A stretch of 64,000 nt of DNA, taken from the NCBI GenBank assembly GCA_033439795.1, contig JAUTDP010000002.1:4898001-4962000 (forward strand), written 5' to 3'. Source of the DNA: Sordaria brevicollis (lineage: Eukaryota > Ascomycota > Sordariomycetes > Sordariales > Sordariaceae). Under the pieces are notes generated by a model. It was not told the origin of the DNA. It was given only the letters and a program-made list of their open reading frames with translations, and searched no databases. Positions 43,608-62,718 of this stretch are shown here, one piece after another. A program made the translations under genes and the position numbers. The first letter of the stretch is position 1, and the number at the start of each line of letters is the position of its first letter.

Positions 43608-46438
43608 CTACATCACAGCGCCATGCTGTCGAAGAAGCAATGCTATATCGTGCCGACCGAAAGCTTCTGCTGCCTTCAGCGCAGTACCGAACGGCCCGCA
43701 AACTCTATGCACATCCGCGCCATATTCGCCCCTGAGAACAAGAGCCACCATCTGCAGGCTTGTGTTCGCCAAGCATATAATCCACTGCAGCGCGTTACCC
43801 ATCGGCCCGCATTCTCCGTTGACATCGGCGCCATGGTCAAGTAGAAGCGTGGCAAGTTCTGTGTTATGTTTAGAGGCGGCCAGGATCAATGGTGGGTGGA
43901 CTTGCTCAGTGCGGTAGTTGACGTCGGCCCCGTGTTTGAGAAGTAGAGTTACTAAGCGGATTTCTCCTCTTAGTACGGCCATCTGAAGCGCATGGCCGTA
44001 CTTCCCTTTCCATGTACAAATGCTGGCGGAGCTGGTGGGAAACATCTGGGTGATATCTGGTGCCTTCCACTTCCCACCGTAGTCCTCGTCATATCCCCTT
44101 AGTCCTCGTGTGGATTTCGTAGCAGCCGTTAGGGCGGTATCGTCTTTATCGGCTTGCGCATTGATAATAGCGCCGTGATCGAGAAAAAGTATCGCTATAT
44201 CCTCTCGGCCTTCTGATATGGCCGCCTGCAGCGCCGAGCCGTACTTCCCACCCTGGGCGTTCACATTAGCGCCGTGCTCGAGAAGCAGCCTGACTACATC
44301 CATGTCTCTTGGGTCGTCGGCCCTCCACATAAAAGGTGCAGTCGCAGCAGCCTGTAGCGCAGTGCCGAATTCCCCTCCTTGCGCGTTGAGGTTAACACGG
44401 AGCTCGAGAAGAAGCTTCACAGTTTCCTTGCTCATCGAGAAAGCAGCCGCTTGAAGTGCAGTACCGTATTTCCCGCCTTGCGCATTCGGGTTTCCTCCAC
44501 GGTCTAGAAGAAGCCTGGTGATCTCATAGCTGCTATGTAAGGCAACTGCGACTGTTTGAAGTGTATGATGATGCTTTATGTCTTTGTCATTAGCATAATA
44601 GCTGCGTTCCCACAGAAAACTGCGGACCTCTCGATGACCGGACAACGCAGCAGCTTGAAGTGCACAACCAAACTCTCCGCCTGGCGCATCAATATTGGCG
44701 CCGCGCTCAAGTAGGAGCTTTACAACCTTTACTTTCTGGCTATAGGCAGCCGTCTGGAGTGCGGTACCATACCCCCCAACTATTGCTCCAACTTCAGCGC
44801 CCTTATTAAGGCGCCTAACAATATTTTCATCGCACCAAAGTGCGGCATCGTGAAGTGCGTTGGTGTTATATTCCTCGTATTGTGCGTTGACGTCATATTT
44901 GGGATCGAGCAACAACTCAATCATCACGATAGGCTTTTCAAAATTCTTTATGGCGCGGGATAGCGTGGACTCTTCGTCACTACCTATTGCATTGACATCG
45001 GCGCCGTAATCCAGGAGAAGTCTTATGACCTCAACGTTGTCGTCGGATTCTGCGGACTCCAAAGCCTTTTCAAAAACATTAGAACCCATGTGCGAGCTAT
45101 CAGGATCGGCGCCGTGATCGAGGAAAAGTTTCACGCTCTCGGGGTCGTTGTGTAGTACAGATATGTATAAGGCAGAGTCGTAATCCCAGTCGTCGTAACC
45201 CCGACCCTGTGGCATAATGTCTGCGCCATGCTCGACAAGACTCATCGCAATTTTCTTGTGTCCGTGCCTGAGGAAGATGTAGAGAAGGTCTACATCGTGT
45301 CTGCATGACACGTTGTGTACGGCTGCTTCTTCGTCACAGCAGAGCCATCTATGAGCCAACAAGACTCGCTCCATGCCACCATCACGAATGTGCCCCTTCA
45401 AAAATTTGATCTGTGAGACACGTTCCGTCTCTGCGGCCTCAGCGTGATTGACCCAGTGTTCAGCTGCGTATGCCGCAAAGGGATGGTCGAACCTGACAAC
45501 ATCGGGGTCGTAATTGGCAATGCGATCGTCCTCCTCCAAGACATCAAAGGCACTGTATTCTTGAATGAACGACACACAGCAGGTCATCAAACGTTCATGC
45601 GAAAGACCAACGGGGTTTGTCCCAAGCGTCGTGTCCAGATTCCGAAGCCATTGGTATGTGTTTTGTCGGAGAAAGTCGGAAACAGATTCATGAATGAACT
45701 GAACCCTTGATCTGTTGTCGGTAACCTCAATGAGCCCTTTGGAGCAGGAGTTTATGCGTCGTTTAATGTCATCAAGCGTAAGCTGTGAGTGACGCAGAAT
45801 GTAAAACCCTGGGTTTGTAGTACCCGTACCAGCCAGCATGGCATTGTATAGGTCGTCTGGTGACAGCGGTCTTACAGCAAACAAAACCCACTGCAGCATC
45901 AAGACTGTCTCGTGCTTGTTCGGATTTTCCTCGTTGAGGATCGTCGAAAACAGCTCGTCCAGCCTTTCAGGTACCTCGTCCAGTTTTTTCTGCATAGCCT
46001 CAAACTTGCCATCGGCATATGCCTGTCTCAACAGGGGGACGACGAGCACGGCCCACAAAAAAATACCGGATGCCTTGCGAAGAACCTTTTCCACAAGACT
46101 TGGGATGCGCGAATCGGTCATTGGCAGCTTGCCGCGGACGAACGTAGCAATGTCTGATGTGTGACCCTTCATGCTTTGCACAACAAGTTCTTCGAACGTC
46201 TCCCTCGGCATCAAGATATTTGGATAATGACGACTCGATAAGCAGATTCTGGTTGCCACTTCACCACCAGCTGCAGCGATTCTCCAAGCCCCAAGGATGT
46301 CCACCACATCTTGGGCCTGTGAGTCGCTGCATTCATCCAGGGCATCGATTAGAAAGACCAGTGGCGGTCGTTGCCGAAACTTCATTTCTGACATGAGGAA
46401 TTCCTGGAGTTCTTGCTCAACCCATGAGAATATCTAGA

Positions 46439-46475
46439 CACACACACGGTCAATTCTAACCGCACACACGGTCCA
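46439..46475 (+). repeat. Left terminal inverted repeat of the MULE
   Basis: 37 bp, exact reverse complement of 50,534-50,570. It contains several CA dinucleotides that RIP would normally mutate, yet it is unchanged. It also has an internal repeat of cacacacggtc. Confidence 0.95.
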
Positions 46476-49400
46476 TACATAACCCTTACCCGCGCCCAGC
46501 CTGCCAGCTCCCTGCCAGCTATAATAGTTGCATATAAAATCCCCGTTTTCCCCGCGTAAATACCCCAATCTAAATGTACGTTACATTTACGAATTTTTCT
46601 AGGGTCGTGCGAACTTAGCGAATTTCCCGTATATGATTACAATTAGTATAATATAATTAGTACAATATAATATAATACTACCCTATTCGTATTAAATCTC
46701 TTAATATAATTAATTATATATAAATTTATTTATTAATCTTTATTATTACGTTAATTAATTAACCCTCTTTTATTTACTTTAAATGCCCCGCCGCCGCCGT
46801 TCTATTAACGAATCGTTCGAGTCCCGCGAGTCCTACGAATCCTTCGATATTATCGTAACCTTTATATTGTAAGCCTTATTCTATTACGACTTATAGACCG
46901 TACTAACCGAAGTTATTAATATACTACCTTCGAAGGAGATTATTAAAGAAGTTCGCCGCGATTTCGTCGAATAGTGCCGCTAATACCGCTTTAATTTCGT
47001 AATTTTACGTAATTATAAATATTAAATTAAGAATTTAAATTACCTAATATTTAGTAAAATTATTCGATATTATTATTAATACGATTACGCTTCCTACCGC
47101 TTTATCTTTACGATAAACCCTTATAATAAGCGATGTCGTATATTTAAGAAGGTTATTAAAGATTATCCTTTCTGGGTGGTTATTAGCGCTAATATAAAAT
47201 CGAATTAAAAATAGATTATTAAGGTAAATTACAACGAATATAATAATTACCTACTATTTATTAACTTTAATACTTATTTTTTTTTACGGGAAAGAGCGTT
47301 AAATTTAAATAACGAAGCGCTATTTTAAATAAATACCCTTCTCGAAAAGAGGGAGAATTTTATCCGGTTTATTTATTTATCGGTTAAAAAGAAGTACCTA
47401 TAATATTTAATTACGAAGAAGGATTTATATAATATACGTACGCGGTTATAATAAATTAATCGCGTAAGGTATAAGGATATATAGGCTTTTATAAGGTTAT
47501 TAGAGAACGATAAGGAGATTATATATTATTATATCGATTAGGAGGATAATATAAAGATTATATTTTTTAGCGCTATTTGGCTTACCCGCCGTTAATATAA
47601 AATATAATTACGATCCCTATTTATAATTTACTTCGATATTATATATAAGATTAATTTTTATTATTTACTATTTATATAAGGGGTAATTTTAATTAACGAG
47701 AAATTTTCTATACTTATTTTCTAGGTAGTAATTAATAACGAAAGGGAGAAGGAGGGGTTTACTTACTTAATTAAATAAATAATCTATTTAATAGAATCGT
47801 TCGATATCCCTCTTTCTAATATTATTATTATTAATAGTAATAATTAATAAATTAACGTCCTTAGGGAATATTTCCCCGATAATATTATATTACAACGTTG
47901 TATTTAATATTTTAATTATAACGTCGTTAAATAAATTAAGAAACTTTAGAAGCGCGCTAGGTAGGAAAATACTTCCGATTAAAAGGATGAAGAAGATAAT
48001 AACGATAATTACTTTTCTAATAATAATAACGATAATAAGGAGGTTAATAAGGATATTAATTAAAGCGTTAATAACGAGCTTTAAGATAAGGATATTCGCG
48101 ATATTAACGAATTAGTATAAAGATATAAAAAGGCCCGTATTGCGACTAAATTCGACCCTTTTATCCCTATAAATTTTAATATAATGCGCGCCGCCCTTTT
48201 CTTTATATAGTAGTATATAGTTTACGCGTATTTTGAATAAGGTTTTGAAGAGGTATATAAAGTCCTTATTAATAAATATAATTAGAATTAAAAGCAGTTA
48301 ATCGATTATATTATTAACGAATATATTTTTATTAAATATAATTGGGCCAATTATTATATATTTTATAATTTTAATTATAATTAAAAGATTACGTCGCTAA
48401 ACGAATTTAATAACGGTTCTATTAAATTATATAAATTATTTATTAAGAGTAGGCTCTTTAATTTATATAAAGTATTTTTCTAATATATTAATAATAAATA
48501 CGAATATTACGTATTAGTTAATAACGAATTTATTATTTAAATATATATAACGTAATATAGTATATTTTAATTAAGGAGGTGCCCGTTAGAGATATCCTCT
48601 TAAGTATTTTAATTATTCGATTATTAATATTAATAAATGCTCTTTGCCCTCTTAATTATTAAATATAGGGTAGAAATTAAGGGTATAATTATTCCTCTCC
48701 TAAAATATATTAGTCGGTTTAAAGAGTAGTACGTATTATTTTGCGTATACGAAATGTTTAAGAGGAAATAAGAGGGGTCGGTTTTATTAGTAATAAAAGA
48801 CGATTATTACCCCTTTTAATACTTATATTAAATTCGAATAAATTACTTTCCCTTTTTACCTCCCAATTTCTCCTATATTAATTTCCTTATAAAGATTCGG
48901 TTAATAAATATTTATTTTTATAATTAACCGCTAAAATAAAACTTAAAGGCCGCCTACGAAGGAAGGGTATTTTTAATAACGAGAATATTTATATTATTAG
49001 ATTACTTACTTTATAAGCCGGTTTATTTTAATTGTAAAATTAAAAGGTTATAAAATTATAGACCGCGATTAATCCCTACGGTACCTTTCGAAATATTATT
49101 CCTATACGAGCTTTAGCGCGGCGTAATTATTTATAATTTAAATTGGGGGATAATATTGAGACTTTTAATATTATAAATATTACCGCTGCTGCTGCCGCGG
49201 TATTATAGCTTAATTAAATAAGGTAGAAGAGGGGAGGGCGCACTTAATAATAGGGGGATAATTAATAAATTTAATAAAAGGAGCCTACTCTAATAATTCT
49301 AATACGTAATTACATTATTATTAATAATAATAGGGAAAATATTTTAAAACGCTCTAATATTTTAGATTTAAAAGGCTCTAATATTATAATCGAAAATATA

Positions 49401-50533
49401 AAGGGGTATAGCGAATATAATTCGGTATTTAAATTATTTATATATAATTATACCCTACTTTTATAATTTCCCTTTTTTTCCTATTATTCTTCCCCCTTCT
49501 TTATACCCTAATTCTAACCCTCCTTCCTCGATTAGCGAGAGGCAATTCCCGTTATTCTTAATAACGATAATACTTATTTCGACGGTATTTATTTCGGTTA
49601 TAATTTAATAAAATTAGATATAGAGGAGCCGTTATAATTAAGGGAGAATAGGGTAGCGGATTATAAAGAGGAAGTATTTATACTTATTATATTTATAAAG
49701 GAATAGTAATAAGCCTAATTCGCCTAAAAAGTAGAATAATAAAGGGTAATCGCTACTTATACCCTACCCGGCCTACTTTACTATTTCTATAAAGAGTTAC
49801 TTAAAAAATTAAAACTATCCTATAACGTTATTTTCGAAAGGGATAGGGAGTAAGTAAAATAGCGTAAAGGTCGTTACAACCACTTAAAATTCTAACCTAA
49901 AATTAAAAAGGAGATTAGGCCTATAAAATTATATATAATTTATTATTAGGGATAATTTATTTATATTTCCTATTACGGGCCCTTTACTTCTAAGCGGGAA
50001 GAGTATTTACGCCGTATAATAAATGCTTATTACTCCTAAAAATATAAAAAATATAAGTAGAAAATATAATAATATAACTCTATTAATTAAAAATATAACC
50101 GCGTAATAGATTTTAATTATTTTGGTTTTAAGGAGGAGGAAGAGGAAGACCCGGTTTTTATTTAGAGGAGGAGGGAAGGTAGCCTATAGAACCCCATTAT
50201 AATTAGCGACGACGAAGAAATGGGGGGAGTAGGGGATAAGGAGGATAAGGAAGAGGGGGGTAATAAGGAGGGGGGTAATAAGCCTATAATAATTAGTAGC
50301 GACGAGGAGGAGTCGTAGGAGGAGGAGTATTAGAGGTAGATATTTAGAGTAAATAAGGGTAATTATATTGAAATTTCATTCTATTATATTTTATATTATA
50401 CTTAATACTATAAAATTATTACGACTTTAGCGGACTTAACACACTTATTAGAAATACTAAGGATGCTATATAATATAAGAAAACCCGATTTTACTATATA
50501 AAACGGCTAAGATTATATATCAGTTGGCATAAG

Positions 50534-50570
50534 TGGACCGTGTGTGCGGTTAGAATTGACCGTGTGTGTG
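50534..50570 (-). repeat. Right terminal inverted repeat of the MULE
   Basis: 37 bp, exact reverse complement of 46,439-46,475; followed by TCTAGA at 50,571-50,576 as on the left side (46,433-46,438). Confidence 0.95.
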
Positions 50571-51151
50571 TCTAGAATTTCCCTAACCCATTCCAATTTC
50601 TGTTGGATCTTTTTTTTCCGGCGGAAAGAAGGCAGGAAGCGTTGGTACGACGGTTCGTGGTTATCGAGAAGTTGGAAAGTTAGAGATCGTAGCAAGCCGA
50701 GAGGTGTCTTTTGCAGTGAGTCACCCCGAGCGTGGAAAAAGTAGGAAGCGACAATATGATCCTTGAATACCTCCTCGCAGTATTTCAAGATATGTTTCAT
50801 AATCGTCGACTTTCCGGTGCCAGGATGGCCTTTGATCCAAAGCACCCTGTTGTGTGCTGGATTATTGGTGCCGTCGCGCCAATCCTGGAATTCAGGTCTT
50901 TCGAAGATCCAGTCACCGGTCTCCAAATGAACCACGGAAATTTCATTTCGGCGGCTATCAAGGCTTGAGAAGCTCAAGGTTCGAAGACACTCTGTTTGGG
51001 TCAGTTTTGGGTAAATGGTAGTGAAGAGCCATCACAACACTGACCTTGCTTCTCAAGTTCTAGGCGTTCGCGTTCTTGATCACTTCCAGAGGGAGGAGCT
51101 AATGGAGGTCAGCCCTTGTTCTCACCGTCACTACCCTGGATGAAGACTTAC

Positions 51152-51260
51152 GTCCGTAGTAGTTGTTGTTGTATTGGGTTCCTCCGGCGCTGCTATTGAT
51201 CTGAACTCCCTGGCTGTTGGGGAAGTTCATGGCCCCCGGCCCAGAGTTATGGGTGGACAT
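51152..51260 (-). other. Putative amyloid-signalling motif at the NLR N-terminus (exon 1)
   Basis: Exon 1 of the NLR gene encodes a short leader and then MNFPNSQGVQINSSAGGTQY plus NNNYYG. It is rich in Gly, Asn, Gln and Ser with a GxQxNxSxGGxQYN spacing. That pattern resembles sigma-type amyloid motifs of fungal NLRs; the label sigma-type is my inference. The motif is set apart from the NACHT domain by its own intron and a PPPSG linker. Confidence 0.7.
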
Positions 51261-52265
51261 TGCAGCGAAAGTCTTTGGCGCTGAGCATATGTGTCTCTTC
51301 AGTGCATATCAGTGTTTGTGACTGTCCTCGCTCCCTGGCATGTCTCGGTCAGGGTGGCCGGTGTTTTCCCAGACAGAACGGCGAGCGAAACCAGGACTTG
51401 ACGACAGGCAGAGAGTTGGTAAAAGGATACTGAGCAATGAGCGGGACAACCAGGACACTCAGACTGAATGAGCGAAAGTTTTGACAATATGTGGCAACCA
51501 GGTAACAAATTTTTTGTCTTGAAAGAGGACACGGATAAGAGATCCGCCAGACTGCGATGGTCACCGACCAAAAGCGACCTGGGCTGAAGTTGTCAGGCTT
51601 GGCGGTGGGCCGAGGTACGTACTGTCATAGGTGCCTCAAAGAAAGCAAGAGATGTTAGAACAAACCATCAATGCCCAACGTCCCAGACCGGTCTAGGTTG
51701 GCTCCTGTCCACCCCAAGGGCTTTGTACTCGTCTGGGTTCGAAACGCCCCAGACCTATCCTCATGCCGGTCAAGTAGTGGCAGGTATGAAGTCTTTGCCT
51801 TGAAGAACTGGTTCGGGACGTCTGCTTCAGCCATCAGCAGCTGCAAGTAAGATGCAAGTGCATGATATTCGAAACATCGTCAACACCATCAGTTGACCTG
51901 GCCAATCAGAAGGCCAGATAACACAATTGCATACCGAAGATGAAGCCTTACTGGTAGAGCCTGACAGGTCATCAAGCGAAAAAATGTGATGTTCAGCTCT
52001 CTATGGCCTTCGGTTTCAGACCACCCACATGAGGCCACCAACTCGACGGCCTCGGGCTAAAGTGCTTTTGTTTCGTCAAGCTGAGGATGTCACAGCTAAG
52101 CCTTACTTTGACTTACCCCTCTCTTTCCACCAGCGCTTTGAGCGGACACCAATATTCCGCGCCCTCCCTGCCCAAAGTTGTGGTGTCTGTTCAACCCTTC
52201 AACTCTCGCGAGTGTCATTCATTCATCCATTTGCATAACCACTTTCGAGGTCAACGTTTGCCCAC
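51261..52265. promoter_or_regulatory. Shared divergent promoter of the NLR and PNP genes
   Basis: About 1 kb separates the two start codons and both genes point outward. No open frame of note. The sequence next to the PNP start is CT-rich (ctttccacc, cccttcaactctcgcg). No defined transcription-factor site can be named with confidence. Confidence 0.55.
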
Positions 52266-53303
52266 ATGAACTCGTCGCACGACACCTCCCGATACACCGT
52301 CGGCTGGATCGCCCCAATGTCCTTGGAGCTGACCGCCGGGCTCCAACTTCTTGAAGACCGCACAACGATCGAACGACCCGGCGACGATGTCAAGTACAAC
52401 GCAGGACGTATAGGCCCACACTTCGTCGTGATGGTCGTATGCCCTCGCGTCGGCAACGAACCAGCCTCCACGGTCCTGGCCAACATGCGCCGCTCATTTC
52501 CAAGCATCAAGCATGTCCTGGTTGTCGGTATCGCTGGTGGAGTGCCCGCATACGGTCCCAACTTGGAGGACCAGATCGTCTTGGGCGACGTCGTCGTTGG
52601 CGTCCCTCACCACGGAAGCGGGGGCGTTGTCCATTATGAGTTTGGCTCATGGGAGGGTAACAATGAGTTCTCTGTCAGAAGTCGCACGCTCCATCCATCT
52701 GCGGCTCTCCTCACCGCAGTAAACCATCTGAGAAGCGCTCATATGATGGAGAGAGGAAGCAAAATCCCACAGTACCTCTCTGAGCTGCGCATGGGCCTGA
52801 AGAAGAAATGGCGACAGCTTTATGAAGATCCCGGAGCTGAGAACGACCACCTCTTTGACGACGACTACGTCCACGAGTACCGAAACCTAACATGTGAGGT
52901 GCGGTGCGACACAGCACGATCGTTGCGCCGGGTGGATCGGGGCCCTGAAGCTGAGCGCGAGACTGACGAGCCTGAAATCCATTATGGCACTATTGGCTCC
53001 GCTAACGCGGTCGTCAGATCAAGCGCCAGGCGGAATGAACTTCGCGCCACGCATAAGATTATCTGTGTTGAGATGGAAGCGGCCGGTGTGATGAGTGATT
53101 ATCAGGGGTTGGTGATCCGGGGAATTTGCGATTATGCCGACTCGCACAAGAATGATGGGTGGCAGCATTATGCCGCCGCAACGGCAGCAGCATACGCTAA
53201 GGGGTTATCTTGCTTCTCCCATCAGGCCAATGGGCGTCGTCGGAGTCTGAAGAAAGAAAACAGGGAGGGTACACGGTTCATAACTCTGGGCCTGGGTCTA
53301 TGA
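52266..53303 (+). CDS. PNP_UDP_1 (nucleoside phosphorylase-like) effector protein, 345 aa in the present frame
   Basis: ATG at 52,266 (MNSSHDTSRYTVGWIAPMSL), no intron. The domain runs from ~10 to ~310: YTVGWIAP at the start, VLVVGIAGGVPAYG (phosphate-binding Gly-rich turn), IVLGDVVVGVP, ICVEMEAAGVM (purine-site Met-Glu) and GICDYADSH (catalytic-site Asp). In fungi this domain commonly sits at the N-terminus of NLRs; here it is a separate, divergently transcribed neighbour. After AAAYAKG (53,191-53,204) the frame turns into a poor, basic tail and stops at 53,301-53,303. The conserved C-terminal continuation lies in another frame (next entry). The simplest view is a one-base loss in the G4 run at 53,201-53,204. 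The catalytic core is intact. Confidence 0.85.
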   Translation: MNSSHDTSRYTVGWIAPMSLELTAGLQLLEDRTTIERPGDDVKYNAGRIGPHFVVMVVCPRVGNEPASTVLANMRRSFPSIKHVLVVGIAGGVPAYGPNLEDQIVLGDVVVGVPHHGSGGVVHYEFGSWEGNNEFSVRSRTLHPSAALLTAVNHLRSAHMMERGSKIPQYLSELRMGLKKKWRQLYEDPGAENDHLFDDDYVHEYRNLTCEVRCDTARSLRRVDRGPEAERETDEPEIHYGTIGSANAVVRSSARRNELRATHKIICVEMEAAGVMSDYQGLVIRGICDYADSHKNDGWQHYAAATAAAYAKGLSCFSHQANGRRRSLKKENREGTRFITLGLGL

Positions 53304-53383
53304 ACTTTCCCGGAAGTTCAGGGGTTCATATAAACAGTTCCGCGGGCGGCAACCAGTACAATAGGACCTTCTATGGGCACTAG
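53204..53383 (+). other. Out-of-frame C-terminal tail of the PNP effector with amyloid-like motif
   Basis: In the frame starting at 53,204 the sequence reads VILLLPSGQW, the usual hydrophobic end of a PNP domain. A charged linker follows, then HNSGPGSMNFPGSSGVHINS plus SAGGNQYNRTFYGH, and TAG at 53,381-53,383. The segment from HNSGPG to FYG matches the NLR N-terminus (HNSGPGAMNFPNSQGVQINS...) at about three quarters of positions. No GT-AG intron by eye restores the frame. So this motif is conserved but disconnected from its domain in the present sequence. Confidence 0.8.
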
Positions 53384-55446: not shown

Positions 55447-57239
55447 CTAGAAGTCAAACATGGTCTCCGGATTGATAAGAAACCCATCCAAAGACATCAT
55501 ATTGTACCGTCCGCGCTCATCATCACCGATCGGCACTGGCTTCTGCTCATTGGCAAGACGGCTAGTAAATCCGGCGGACAGCAATAGTCCCAAAGCCCTT
55601 GCCAGCTTGATCGTTCGGAGCTGGTGTTCTGATAAGCCGCCAATTTCCCGTTTGAGCGTATCCCAAAAGACTTCCTGCAGAGCGTCGTAGTCATTGTACC
55701 GTGTCCACCCCTCGCGCAAATGAAGCTTCCCGGACAAGAATCGGAGCGAGTGGAGGTTGAGTCCGAACGGACACACTTCGGCTTCTGCCCAGTCAATGAC
55801 GCCGACGAGATGACAGGTGGCTTCGTCCACTAGAATGTTGCAGGTGCCAAAGTCCCGATGGAGGAGAACCATGGGCAAGGAGAAGATGTCGTCTAGTGCA
55901 TCGAAGCATCTGTGGATGATGGGCCGAAATCGAATGGGGAGAGAATTGTCCAGGAGTTCAAGGTCGGCAACGTACGTTTCCCGCAGTCTCCTGCGATACT
56001 CCAGACTGACTTGCTGAGGTGACTTCCACGAGAGAGCCATGAAGCTGCGAAAGAATGGGTTAGCATTACCAGCAGATTGAGGGCGATGGTTGAGACCTAC
56101 GATGCGACGTCTTCCATGAGAGTCTTCCTCCAGGCAAAGTTCTCTGGGGAGTTTTCCGGATGTCCATGGGCCAATATGAAATCCAGATGCGTCATTCCAC
56201 GCATGCGGGTCATCAAGTAGACGTAAAGTTGCTCCTTTCCTTTTTCCTCTTCGCCCAGTATGCCTTTGAACGACACCTCCGGCACGAGTGACCCGTAAAC
56301 CTCGGTCGCGAGAGAGGTTATTTCGGTTTTGAGTTCCAGTGATTTGAGGCGAAACTGGACGACGAATTCCAGGTCAGACCCCGCATAGATGGTGTAGCTG
56401 CACACGCCCTGGACCTCGACTGGGACGACATTGTCATGTCCGACGAGTTCCCTCGCTCTCGCGTCACATGCTTCGCGGGTTGCAGAAGTTTTGGTGAAGA
56501 AGGCATCGATCTCGGAATCGACGGAATAGTTCTTTGCCGCTGCGAGCGTGACGATCTTCTTTGCAGCTGCGTCTGCCAGAGCCGCGTCAATCCCTTTTGC
56601 TCTGTCACTGAGCAATGTCAGGCTTGCCTCGTCCTCCACATCTGCGACCATCATGTGAGCCAGCTTGCGACAGTCATCCTCGACACTGAAAGCCTTTTCC
56701 AGCTCGTCGATCAACTCGGTCAACTGGCCAACCATGGTTTCCAGAGTGTCCGTGTTGTATAACACACACCTCTTCCGCTGGATCAATTGTAGGACCTTTC
56801 CTTGTCTCCGTATAGCGACTGTCAGTCGATAATGCAGCACTTCTGCTTCGGGTGGGATATCTTCTTCATGGAGCACTTCCAAGGTCTTACTGTCCTCTAC
56901 AGCCAGCTCGTAACGCCTCGATGATCTTTGGGAGGATTCGAATAGTAGCATGATTTCCTCGAGGATCAGCCTCGCTATCCCGAGAGATTTGTCTGTAGTC
57001 GCCGCCGGATTGGTCGGCGCGCTAGGTTGCTGGAAACGTGTGTCCTTGAGGATATTGACAGCCTGTCCCCATCGCGCCAGACGCATGTTGACGATGTCCC
57101 ATCTGAGCAGGCACTTTTTGTGGTCATAGTCGAGCGCCAGATGGCGACCCAACCGGATGTGACCATGATAGGCCAGGCAGTGGTCGAAAAGATCGTAAAG
57201 GCTCAAGGAGCTGATGATGTTTTCAAACCAGTAGTCCAT
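55447..57239 (-). CDS. HeLo-domain / aminoglycoside-phosphotransferase fusion, 578 aa
   Basis: ATG at 57,239-57,237 (MDYWFENIIS). Exon 1 to 56,101 (GTAGGT); intron 56,100-56,045 with GCTAAC branch and CGCAG; exon 2 56,044-55,447. Residues ~10-190 match the HET-S/LopB (HeLo) pattern: DLFDHCLAYHGHIRLGRHLA, MRLARWGQAV, then LLFESSQRSSRRYE. HeLo is the membrane-attacking domain of HET-S and its relatives. A helical connector leads to a kinase-like fold (~300-578). It has a degenerate N-lobe, the catalytic LLHRDFGTCNILVD (HRD-N loop) and GVIDWAEAEVCPFG (metal-binding Asp). Fusion of a HeLo domain to an APH/fructosamine-kinase-like domain suggests regulated cell death or phosphorylation-linked control. 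It has no amyloid-like motif at its ends that I can see. Confidence 0.85.
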
Positions 57240-57935
57240 GGCGTATTGGCTGGTTGTGGTGAGGGTGAGAAAAGTAGAACACGGAAATCGAGAAGGAGAA
57301 ATGGCATTGGTTGGTGGTGAACGCGGGGTATGTACCTCTGCGTTACACAAAGCTGGCTCCCGCGATTGCCGGCGGCAACAGACCGTTTGCTTTTACGTAC
57401 CATTCACCGCGCCGTCCATCCAAACGAAGGCCCAATGACAGGCACTTCACGGCCACACAGCCGAGGTGTGGCTTGTCTCATTTGTCAGCAGGACCTTTCG
57501 GTATTGTTTACATTATCTGGGGCCCATGTTCGAAATGACTGGCGTTGCACCGTAACAAGGAACAGTGTTGGACAAATGCGTCCAATGACAGACCAGAAGA
57601 TTGTAGGTGCGGTGAAAGAGGACGAAACAGCTCGGAAGGCTCGATTGAAGGCTTGATGCTTCCCGCGGCAGAGGTTTGTCGTTGCCAAAGGCCGTTGACA
57701 GTGCCTTTCATTCGTGGACTGTCGACGCAAAGGTCCATCCAAACGCACTTTCCTTTGCTCCAGGATCTTCATGCCCTCGCGAGTTTCTTCTCGAGCCATT
57801 TTTCGGTCCTTCCTCCAACGCGTCACTGTTGGAAAGCCATCCTTTGGGCTGCCCTTTAGAGGTACTGGCCCTGCCCATTCACCGACACGCCATCCAGTGT
57901 ACGTTCTCCTGCTCAACTCTACCCACCCTCGGCCC
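57240..57935. other. Intergenic spacer
   Basis: Upstream region of the HeLo-kinase gene and 3' flank of the methyltransferase gene. Overlapping short frames without motifs. Confidence 0.5.
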
Positions 57936-59425: not shown

Positions 59426-61804
59426 TCAGCACAAGTAAACCACCGTCTCCTCATCCCTACCCCTATCAACCGCCAACGGACCCCAGGTATTCTCCCACTT
59501 CCCGACCCGACGACAGTAGAACCGCCTGCTCTTCTTCCCTTCCATGTCCTCGACGAGCGCAGACGTCCCGGCATTCTCATTCTCGGCCATATCCACCTGA
59601 ACAACCATAAACCCAACTTGCAAAGCCCTTGTTCCACCCCTCGCAAGGTGATCAAGCACCAACAAACAGCACACCTCCTCTTTCAAATAGAAAAAGTCGT
59701 CATCATCCCACATCAGCACCAAGTCAATCCTTGGCATATCCTCCAACGTCCGTTTGTACGTCCTCATCGCCAAGATTCCCCCCTCTTCCGCACCGCAAAA
59801 GGCAACTTCGCACTTCCAGTTCGGAGGCTGAGCGGAACTATGAAACCACCAATCTTTGGGTGCCTCAGTAGCCGCCCACGACCATGTCGGTAAGCCCAAT
59901 TTCGTACTAGGTTGTGACTCGGGCAGCGATTTTCCCGCTAGCAGTTTCTTGTCCATCTGTTCGCGTGTTTGTTGTCGTTTGTTACTGTCCGTTGCGGAAG
60001 ACCAGCCGGGGTTGAACATCTCGGTGTTGAGAATGTTGCTGAAGCCCCAGAGGAGGTCAAACGGCCATAGTTCGCGCCAGGAGCCGCCGAAGGTGTATGT
60101 CCAGTTTTTGGATTCGGCTATGGCGGAGACCATACCGGCGAGAGCGATGAGGCGGTCGGAGGGGTAGGTTAGGGAGGTGGAGGTGTAGTAGGTTAGGAGG
60201 GTTGTCCAAGAGGCGGCTAGGGAGAGGACGTGTTTGCCGTCGTCCTCGTTGGCATTGTTCACGTCTACGCCAGTGGCTAGCGACATCGCAGGACGATGGT
60301 CGTGTACCAAATCTTGATACACGGACTTGGCGTTGGCGGTCCAGATGGATTGAGAAGCCTCGTTATCTTCGCTTTTCAAGACAGTTCCAAACGGACAACT
60401 TTCCGAGAGCGCATGTAGGCGACATTCCCAGTACAGCTCGTCGGCGCCGTAGTAGATGATGCGCGGCGAAAGCAAGCGCTCTTGGACTATCCAGCCTCGT
60501 GATAGAAGTGGGTTCTTTTGTTGAGCGCCCCATAGCATTTCGTCCACGCTGTGCTGGTACTGTTCGCGGATAGCGTAGAAGGACGCTCCTTCATCCGTGG
60601 TATTGGCGGTCTCGTCGTTTGGCTCGGTGCCGTTGGAACTTTCCGTTCTGTCATCCGATAAGGACAAAGGAGACGTGATAATGGGCGCATACACCTCCAG
60701 GGGATTGCTTCGCACCGAGAAGGCCGTATCGGGCGTGGTTCCTTGGCCTCCTTCCATTCCCATGCCCGAAGCAAAGATTGTCAAAAGGGAGTTACCATAT
60801 ACAGCAGCCATGGTCTGCGCCTCTCTGTTCCAATCCTCGGACGAGTCCTGCATGATGCAGAGCGAGTCAATCCAGATGTATCGGTAGCCTAGTTGCCGGG
60901 TGATACGCATGGCATCGAGGAATGTCCGAGCTAGACCTCCGATGGGGATTCCTTCGGGTTTCTGCCAGTCATCGATAGTCTTGGTGGTTAGCCTTAGAGA
61001 TGACCCGGTCAAGGCCCAAGAGTGACTGAGCGTCAGGTACGAGATTGTAGCCGGTGTTTGCGTAGCCGAGTCTGGGAGGAAGATCCGCGGTCGCAGAGGC
61101 CTGTCGTCTGGAGTCCCAACATCAACAAGCCTCGTCGGAAGTCTCTGGAAACTGGAACTTGAACCCTTGCACCCAGGATGATTATTGAGGCAGTCATCCA
61201 ACCAGTGTCGCACAAGACCATACGCCTCCGGCGAGTCAGTCGAGCAAGGCAACACAAACTTCTCCCCATCCGGCAGTTTTTGCGGTAGAATGGCCTTCCG
61301 TCCACCTCCACTCCCATCAGTCCTCTCAAGCTTGAACGTCGCCAAGGGAATCGTCTCCGAATTACCCTCAGGCTCTCCATCCCTTTCGGAGTCCGGTAAT
61401 GCAGCCCAATCGTCATCCCACTGGTCGCAAGACGTAGCGGAAAATGAGATGACGGGAATGTCCCTCCCGTCACCCTGAAACGCCAGCTGTCGACTGCATT
61501 CGATTGTGACTCTGTGGTCGTCGCTGGCGGTCGCAAAGTTGTCGTCGAGACGGACTTGGGTGCACAGATGGCAGCCGGCGGTCATTATCGAGTCTTCTAG
61601 CATCTGTTTGACATTCTTGCTGTGGAAGAACTTGTCGCTAGACCAATCGGGCTCGTCACCTGCTTGCCGAGGGTGCCAGAGTTTCTTGGATGTTGTAAGA
61701 GCGCGGGCACAGCGGTTGCATAGACGGTTGGGTTCCATGTTTTTGGGCTGTTGAGGTGAGCCATCGGCTTCAGATGAAGAGACTAGAAGAGGTTTGCCGT
61801 CCAT
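59426..61804 (-). CDS. HET-domain (heterokaryon incompatibility) protein, 792 aa
   Basis: Single exon from ATG 61,804-61,802 (MDGKPLLVSS) to a stop at 59,426. Residues ~28-85 have Cys pairs (CNRCAR, CHLC) in the usual pre-HET region. The HET core spans ~256-480: YLTLSHSWAL, TIDDW, IPIGGLARTFLDAMRITRQL, GYRYIWIDSLCIMQDSSEDW, REAQTMAAVYGNSLLTIFAS, then SRGWIVQERLLSPRIIYYG. Later comes the conserved YPSDRLIALAGM and a C-terminal LPTWSWAA motif. HET domains, related to TIR folds, mediate cell death after fusion of unlike strains. There is no NACHT or repeat domain, so this is the HET-only type. It lies about 8 kb from the NLR/PNP pair. Confidence 0.93.
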   Translation of the reverse strand: MDGKPLLVSSSEADGSPQQPKNMEPNRLCNRCARALTTSKKLWHPRQAGDEPDWSSDKFFHSKNVKQMLEDSIMTAGCHLCTQVRLDDNFATASDDHRVTIECSRQLAFQGDGRDIPVISFSATSCDQWDDDWAALPDSERDGEPEGNSETIPLATFKLERTDGSGGGRKAILPQKLPDGEKFVLPCSTDSPEAYGLVRHWLDDCLNNHPGCKGSSSSFQRLPTRLVDVGTPDDRPLRPRIFLPDSATQTPATISYLTLSHSWALTGSSLRLTTKTIDDWQKPEGIPIGGLARTFLDAMRITRQLGYRYIWIDSLCIMQDSSEDWNREAQTMAAVYGNSLLTIFASGMGMEGGQGTTPDTAFSVRSNPLEVYAPIITSPLSLSDDRTESSNGTEPNDETANTTDEGASFYAIREQYQHSVDEMLWGAQQKNPLLSRGWIVQERLLSPRIIYYGADELYWECRLHALSESCPFGTVLKSEDNEASQSIWTANAKSVYQDLVHDHRPAMSLATGVDVNNANEDDGKHVLSLAASWTTLLTYYTSTSLTYPSDRLIALAGMVSAIAESKNWTYTFGGSWRELWPFDLLWGFSNILNTEMFNPGWSSATDSNKRQQTREQMDKKLLAGKSLPESQPSTKLGLPTWSWAATEAPKDWWFHSSAQPPNWKCEVAFCGAEEGGILAMRTYKRTLEDMPRIDLVLMWDDDDFFYLKEEVCCLLVLDHLARGGTRALQVGFMVVQVDMAENENAGTSALVEDMEGKKSRRFYCRRVGKWENTWGPLAVDRGRDEETVVYLC

Positions 61805-62718
61805 TGTGGTAGTGACCGAGCTGGTATGTTGTCGCTTGTCTCGCAGGTCACCGGAATCCGGTGTCGTGGATCAGCGGTACTTATGGAGTAGTGAGGAAGT
61901 TAGGCAGCAATAAAGGATGCTCAGCCATCGTGAGAAACGAGGCCTCATAGCCGAGTGACCAATCGAGGGCCAAGCGCCCGAGACCCGTCAGGACATCCCT
62001 CCATCATCGCACTCATCCTCGGCGCCCGCGATGAATTGGAGCGTGGTTTCCCAAGGTAGGGCGGTATTTCCATTGGATGGCCATTGTTTACTTGGCCGGA
62101 AGAATGAAAGGGAAGACAGTTGGAGGCACAAACGATGGCAGGTGATGATGGAATCGATTGGTGTTGGAGGAAAAAGAGAGCGGGAGGGCATTCACATTTC
62201 CAGGCCTATGCCAATCCGTTGTTTTCTTGGTATGGTGGTGTTAGTGCACATAACAACTGACCGTAACTTTAGGGAGTTGGACTTGGCATAGTAAGGGCGG
62301 AGGGTGTAAGAAGGTTTGGGAAGAACGTAAAAGAATTAAATATCAGAACCGGAGATTTATGTATTTTACATTACACTTGGGTTTTGAAGCTCACCTTCGC
62401 GCAACTTATTTTCGCATTCGTTCCAGCTGAAAACTGTCTCCAGTTGTGTGCACTAACATCGCTGATGCCGAGAAAACCTCCAGGCGTTTGAGTGCGGGAC
62501 CGCTTCCTTGGCCCGATAAGCGCGATAAGCGCGATAAGATAAGCCAATAATTGTTGGCGTTGGTCGCAAGTCGCATGCGGGGCCAACCAACAGCCAACAT
62601 CCCGTCCTGTCTGCTCCCAGGTCATTCCCAGTTCTCAACCATAAATTGGCACCCAATCGACGATTCCCCCCCCCTCATAATTCCTCACGTCCACTCCTTT
62701 TCTTGACTGAATTTCACG
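61805..62718. other. Divergent promoter region between HET and SET genes
   Basis: Contains both upstream regions. Near 62,517-62,536 a short tandem (gcgataa ×3) occurs. No gene-like frame is convincing. Confidence 0.5.

Follow-up and report, generated by a model that had tools for sequence, protein, structure and literature searches.

Does a pair of divergent genes in a 64,000-nucleotide stretch of the Sordaria brevicollis genome (the window) encode a receptor and an effector coupled through a shared amyloid-like motif, and could such a pair still signal? The original prediction had proposed a NACHT-ankyrin NLR and a separate PNP-domain effector under the control of a sigma-like motif. As judged from sequence comparison, the locus very probably represents a sigma-type two-gene NLR/PNP immune system that is now decaying.

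As predicted, the two genes are divergent, with the NLR on the minus strand and the PNP on the plus strand, and a closely similar Gly/Asn/Gln motif is encoded at both of the places proposed. The first copy, MSTHNSGPGAMNFPNSQGVQINSSAGGTQYNNNYYG, is encoded at 51153-51254 (minus strand) at the beginning of NLR exon 1, and the second, VHNSGPGSMNFPGSSGVHINSSAGGNQYNRTFYGH, is encoded at 53276-53377 (plus strand) downstream of the PNP domain. The copies are identical at 25 of 34 residues (76% over aligned columns), and their local alignment scored 144, whereas 5000 shuffles reached no more than 65. This resemblance is far from chance. The assembly (53 Mb in 27 contigs) was also searched in six frames by a procedure that scores just those candidates passing a loose first look. 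No third copy was found with the NLR-side motif at E<=0.001, and the PNP-side motif returned the same two places only at E<=10, the second copy with E 1.3e-11.

The PNP_UDP (nucleosidase-fold) domain is located at 52266..53201 on the plus strand, as assigned from PF01048 (E 2.6e-11), from relatives and from a structure model. It is 79% identical to P0002 over 295 residues, and the closest named relatives among the 120 PNP proteins listed are from Pseudoneurospora amorphoporcata and Neurospora tetraspora, both members of the Sordariaceae. Foldseek searches with the predicted model (mean pLDDT 85, pTM 0.88) retrieved MTA/SAH nucleosidases, with a best E of 7.1e-13 and, among the 50 matches listed, TM by target of 0.55-0.75 and rmsd of 3.9-14.5. 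The PNP sequence alone gave no match in the PDB at E<=0.001; a profile gave MTA/SAH nucleosidases instead. A profile alignment placed the EME and D segments, which we take to be the active site of the MTA/SAH nucleosidase fold, opposite those of 1zos and 4jos. Profile and predicted model together assign the window PNP to the PNP_UDP_1 / MTA-SAH nucleosidase fold. PNP-family immune effectors acting on ATP have been described in bacteria (PMC10197012, PMC11249213), and ATP has been stated as a target of the PNP_UDP family more widely (PMC12881547). By analogy, ATP cleavage would be the likeliest activity of the window PNP. PADLOC matched the window to four models, namely PDC-M60C, a PN-superfamily effector, PDC-M72A and ankyrin.

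In the case of the effector tail, the proposal that the motif forms the PNP C-terminus held for its position behind the domain, but not for its reading frame. The window PNP frame matches its relatives through YAK and encodes other residues from there, departing from their conserved sequence near 53200 and stopping at 53303 without the motif being reached. The end of this open frame as assembled (53202..53303, plus strand), defined by comparing the tail of P0001 with those of relatives, is without the motif, as is P0001 (345 aa), the database prediction for the window PNP gene. The residues VILLLPSG, the linker and the motif are encoded in another plus frame than the PNP domain, at 53204..53383 with a stop codon at 53381-53383, as identified by profile and by a tblastn search with P0003, which aligned in frame 2 over 75 columns at 44% identity (E 4.7e-8). 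In relatives, YAKE, a hydrophobic run ending in P, the linker and the motif form one continuous frame. A two-gene amyloid NLR/effector system calls for a neighboring effector with the motif in frame at its C-terminus; the window effector is next to the NLR gene, but its tail lies out of the PNP frame as assembled. The frame change may be a mutation, but an assembly error or the splicing of a hidden short intron could also explain it.

Either of the latter would leave the effector intact and the NLR alone broken, which is a possibility to be taken seriously even though we do not favor it. A 53-nt GT..AG stretch at 53204-53256, found by eye, would unite the two frames, both of which are open up to the tail, and both introns of the NLR gene are also 53 nt long. 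Small indels are, in addition, frequent among assembly errors. An intron at 53204-53256 was our first guess and is now kept as a rival only; this stretch encodes VILLLPSG, which is part of the protein in relatives, and on visual inspection its splice sites look poor and no good branch site precedes the acceptor. An intact effector overlaps the preferred explanation of a decaying sigma-type pair and alters just its decay part.

The sigma motif, as described, consists of submotifs A (GxGxQFNxx) and B (GGTQNINT) repeated three times in succession (Daskalov 2012, PMC3321046). Both window copies have G-x-[QMH] at positions 6, 15 and 24 (zero-based), giving three units with a 9-residue step as in the sigma amyloid motif. 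The third repeat of the window motif, GGTQYN/GGNQYN, resembles submotif B, and the first two repeats are degenerate; the motifs of several relatives fit the submotif pattern better than the window copies do. Neither window peptide matches the Pfam NACHT_sigma profile (PF17106), and hmmscan of both peptides against Pfam returned no family. The name sigma therefore rests on homology through relatives. The same profile, when used to search the genome, returned solely a SesA-type protein elsewhere. The PP core NxGxQxGxN and the PUASM pattern FxGxGxQxxGxGxF are absent in both copies. Of the comparisons originally suggested, that with sigma was borne out through relatives but not by the Pfam profile, and that with PP found no core to support it.

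It is unlikely that the motif belongs to a distinct PNP-linked amyloid family rather than to sigma, PF01048_015 (Wojciechowski 2022, four pairs) being one example, and the mechanism would then be unchanged. Such a family would agree with the failure of the Pfam sigma profile on both copies, and Wojciechowski 2022 (PMC9815663) does contain a PNP-linked motif without a name, the letters of which are in the supplement. The G-x-[QMH] repeat pattern of both copies argues against this assignment, as do the profile links to P0093 (Corynespora cassiicola) and P0107, two PNP relatives with a NACHT_sigma call in Pfam, and to NLR N-termini with regular sigma-like repeats.

These links were obtained with two profiles. 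The tail profile was built from nine relatives' PNP tails chosen by eye, without P0019, P0029, P0002 and P0009 and with the window left out, and the NLR profile was built from eight relatives' NLR N-termini, also chosen by eye, leaving out the sigma-like NLRs P0141, P0216, P0131 and P0147. The 240 fetched proteins comprised the 120 PNPs and 120 NLR-type proteins, and one protein in each list was the window's own. In the window (1903 six-frame pieces), the tail profile matched the PNP tail with E 4.8e-9 and NLR exon 1 with E 3.1e-8, the next match being at 0.46. Among the 240 proteins at E<=0.001, it matched four NLRs that were not used to build it (P0123, P0133, P0223 and P0125), always within residues 9-44, as well as the C-termini of four additional PNPs outside the building set. 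The motif was thereby detected in 13 of the 120 listed PNPs, nine of which were profile builders, and most PNPs were without it. The NLR profile matched exon 1 in the window (E 3.6e-5) and, at E<=0.001, 13 PNP proteins among the 240, every one at the C-terminus. It reached the window PNP tail at just E 0.32, which, together with the lack of a NACHT_sigma match, is a point against the preferred explanation.

In relatives, too, the motif sits at the NLR N-terminus and the PNP C-terminus. Close PNP relatives have the tails HNSGPGFMNFNTGSGSQMNNNTAGGQYN (P0003) and HNSGGGFMNFNMGAGYQTNNNTAGNQYN (P0007), and the N. tetraspora NLRs P0123 and P0133 start with YNSGSGFSNANTGPGAQYNNNAAGSQYNNYY or a like sequence, to which Lasiosphaeria P0125 is similar. 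More regular sigma-like repeats are found in Trichoderma (P0160, P0222, P0223) and Monosporascus (P0166, P0177). When aligned with the tails of seven close relatives, the window PNP tail shows 42-58% identity, and with the tail of P0093 it shows 32%; for the window NLR motif, identity to the three other NLR motifs aligned with it is 42-50%. A P-loop pattern was lacking in 50 of the 119 other NLR-type proteins, the N-termini of which are not judgeable. These matches indicate that the window motifs are homologous to the sigma-bearing ends of other NLRs and effectors, and the expectation that other genomes would show such NLR/PNP pairs was confirmed in part, namely for the presence of the motif at the NLR N-terminus and the PNP C-terminus. 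The N. tetraspora NLRs P0123 and P0133 and PNPs P0007 and P0021 are located on contigs of four different lengths, which counts against the preferred explanation. A search for proteins with the tail alone gave 5 candidates, none at E<=1; this search was presumably too narrow, and the whole-protein search listed relatives with such tails.

Fused PNP-NACHT-ankyrin relatives were found in Madurella fahalii (P0129) and Cercophora newfieldiana (P0191). Their PNP parts are 63% and 64% identical to that of the window, respectively, and their first NACHT parts 55% and 49%. These two modules therefore exist both fused and as separate proteins. No sigma-like repeat was found between the domains of P0129 or P0191, so that these close relatives of both window proteins differ from the window pair in being one protein without the repeat. 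Taken together, the profiles, the motif positions in relatives and the fused relatives indicate that the pair is descended from a sigma-type NLR/PNP receptor-effector system. Motif sharing between the two genes and its recurrence at the same ends likewise favor the sigma-like reading and the two-gene NLR/PNP version originally put forward.

In the case of the receptor, NLR exon 1 with the sigma-like motif (51152..51260, minus strand) was defined by its translation, a GTAAGT splice donor and profile matches. It is followed by a 54-nt exon 2 (51045..51098, minus strand), assigned from splice sites and by-eye resemblance to N. tetraspora P0123, and by exon 3 (50576..50991, minus strand), which holds the first NACHT part with the P-loop and was identified by the NPHP3_N profile. 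The two introns, at 51099-51151 and 50992-51044 on the minus strand, were placed at splice sites, and exons 1-3 retain good ones. The order is motif, exon 2, NACHT, and there is no N-terminal effector domain. NPHP3_N positions 2-103 of 164 match at 51031-50577 (E 5.1e-25); the later positions 111-164 match at the start of the frame 46433-43608 (E 3.5e-4, below the Pfam cut-off). This second NLR part (43608..46433, minus strand) is an open frame of 941 aa that comprises the remaining NACHT and the ankyrin repeats (Ank_2, E 1.9e-48), and it is 62% identical to P0122 over 960 columns. The first part breaks off at about 50576, at the start of a 4.1-kb insert. The predicted NACHT-ankyrin NLR was thus recovered with its N-terminal motif, NACHT and ankyrins, but as a gene that is not intact.

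The two NACHT parts join within three residues in five of the six relatives compared (P0122, P0123, P0125, P0129 and P0191). In the sixth, P0133, they do not simply meet, and this model seems to be short of part of the NACHT. An ankyrin call is present in P0133 and P0125 and absent in P0123. The behavior of P0133 and the missing ankyrin call in P0123 are further points against the preferred explanation.

The insert (46434..50575), with boundaries placed by eye at the CTAG found at both ends, has arms at 46428-46475 and 50534-50581 that are 96% complementary over 48 nt, forming terminal inverted repeats. In 500-base windows its interior has a GC of 0.20-0.34, a TpA/ApT of 1.16-1.48 as compared to up to 0.96 in the flanks, and a (CpA+TpG)/(ApC+GpT) of 0.03-0.35 as compared to at least 1.04 in the flanks. 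The low GC and these dinucleotide indices are marks of RIP. The left end of the insert matches 33 places in the genome, including the two ends of the insert itself, and several of these matches occur as close opposite pairs; the insert is a multicopy TIR element. With the NLR split by a RIP-like transposon and the effector tail out of the PNP frame, the pair looks broken in this assembly.

That the whole unit is functional, with the insert spliced out and the pair signaling, is very improbable. The open frame kept in the second NLR part would agree with it, but the NACHT protein is continuous at the insert point in all but one of the relatives compared, the insert, at 4.1 kb, greatly exceeds the 53-nt introns of the NLR gene in length, and RIP-mutated AT-rich DNA is normally silent.

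At the nucleotide level the two motif copies are 68% identical. Of the 34 codon pairs in the alignment, 10 are the same, 15 specify the same residue by different codons and 9 specify different residues; with a synonymous difference in 15 of the 25 codons for identical residues, the protein sequence appears to have been kept while the DNA drifted. Although the window copies are more alike to each other than to any compared relative, a recent origin of the motif by local DNA duplication or gene conversion, without meaning for signaling, is scarcely credible; it is contradicted by the synonymous differences and by the presence of the motif at the corresponding NLR and PNP ends in relatives.

In its working form, a sigma-type NLR/PNP pair would operate as follows. 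The NACHT-ankyrin receptor would oligomerize upon sensing a non-self cue, whereupon its N-terminal sigma-like motifs would meet and may adopt an amyloid fold. This fold would then be templated onto the C-terminal motif of the neighboring PNP enzyme, and the nucleosidase, clustered and switched on, would harm or stop the cell, with cell death as the probable outcome and ATP as the probable substrate. The window copy most likely no longer signals, because a RIP-like transposon interrupts its receptor gene and its effector tail is out of frame. Two points speak against decay: an assembly error may account for the frame change, and the second NLR part has kept an open frame of 941 aa.

A more tentative reading, and a rather doubtful one, is that the amyloid pathway is dying as a unit, with the transposon and RIP killing the receptor and the effector tail then being lost by frame change. 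Receptor loss would have relaxed selection on the amyloid tail, and the frame change would have left an untagged PNP enzyme. If this is true and both changes are polymorphic, receptor loss driving effector uncoupling would be testable and the order of events readable.

The original prediction knew of no earlier description of exactly this pairing, which is contradicted by the published record. Adjacent UDP-phosphorylase/STAND pairs with sigma-type extensions were described in Aspergillus oryzae, A. terreus and Magnaporthe grisea, and extensions in sigma clusters were reported to be most alike within a locus (Daskalov 2012, PMC3321046). Like these pairs, the window has a PNP_UDP effector beside an NLR without an effector domain, a sigma-type extension behind the effector and at the NLR N-terminus, and the highest likeness within the locus. 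Unlike them as described, its NLR is split by an insert, its effector tail is out of frame and its motif is too divergent for the Pfam profile. The sesA/sesB/het-eN locus of Nectria haematococca (PMC3321046, PMC5485727) likewise has a NACHT-ankyrin NLR with an N-terminal three-repeat sigma motif; its effectors are SesA and the SesB hydrolase, whereas the window effector is a PNP.

Wojciechowski 2022 (PMC9815663) reports that several PNP_UDP-associated motifs are common to neighboring NLRs, links PUASM, NLR12 and PF01048_015 to PNP_UDP, and connects sigma and PP with effectors of both the pore-forming and the enzymatic type. For PUASM it describes peptide and in-vivo tests, with peptides and fusion proteins of one pair. 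PUASM pairs resemble the window in combining a PNP_UDP effector with a neighboring NLR that has a common amyloid-like motif, but in that account their NLRs are NACHT or NACHT-WD40, and their characteristic pattern is the one that the window lacks. Detocs also has a PNP-family effector in an immune setting and, unlike the fungal window pair, is a bacterial three-gene system (PMC11249213).

The NLR/PNP sigma-type pairing is therefore of a known kind, in print since 2012, and the locus opens no new kind of system. It adds to the printed examples a NACHT-ankyrin/PNP case that is apparently decaying; sequences related to it occur in Neurospora and allied fungi, and its fused relatives hold the PNP and NACHT-ankyrin modules in one protein. 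The locus may show how a sigma-type NLR/PNP pair decays.

Elsewhere in the genome, a SesA-sigma locus on contig C3 was considered as a partner locus and rejected, as no NACHT was seen among frames of at least 200 aa in the surrounding 20 kb (one of three frames was searched with Pfam and the remaining two were judged by eye). Other PNP places in the same genome, at C3:704014 and C24:2574726, run into or precede other frames, and these neighboring frames are nucleotide-binding-domain-like by eye.

The AT-rich element inserted within the NACHT coding sequence (46434-50575) is one member of a multicopy TIR family. Its left end gave 33 matches in the S. brevicollis assembly, 31 of them beyond the element itself. 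Opposite ends of the family are spaced approximately 4 kb apart in some cases and approximately 0.4-0.6 kb apart in others, corresponding to full-size and MITE-like forms. At the insertion point, the same few residues are apparently present in both parts of the NLR (46428-46440 and 50572-50600), and the site may therefore hold a few extra bases in addition to the CTAG repeat.

Another locus of this genome (L003, contig C3, 79678-79800) encodes a protein that has a SesA domain and matches NACHT_sigma at its C-terminus; from this profile match it is predicted to be a second sigma-type effector. The match scored 28.7 bits in one search and 24.0 bits in another (cut-off 27.6). An ankyrin frame lies close to L003, and no NACHT was recognised among the three frames of at least 200 aa in the surrounding 20 kb, of which one was searched with Pfam and the other two were inspected by eye.

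In the case of N. tetraspora, the sigma-like NLRs P0123 and P0133 and the sigma-tailed PNPs P0007 (representing a cluster of 8 sequences) and P0021 are listed on contigs of four differing sizes, so the partners may be unlinked.

Approximately 2 kb from the S. brevicollis PNP gene, the minus strand (55447-57392) carries a HeLo domain frame (PF14479, E 1.6e-26) and, after it, a frame that resembles an APH kinase (PF01636, E 7.8e-8); the two are possibly a single HeLo-kinase gene. A HET domain gene (PF06985, E 1.7e-24) is located at 59426-61870, also on the minus strand. The NLR, PNP, HeLo-APH and HET genes lie together in approximately 18 kb of the window.
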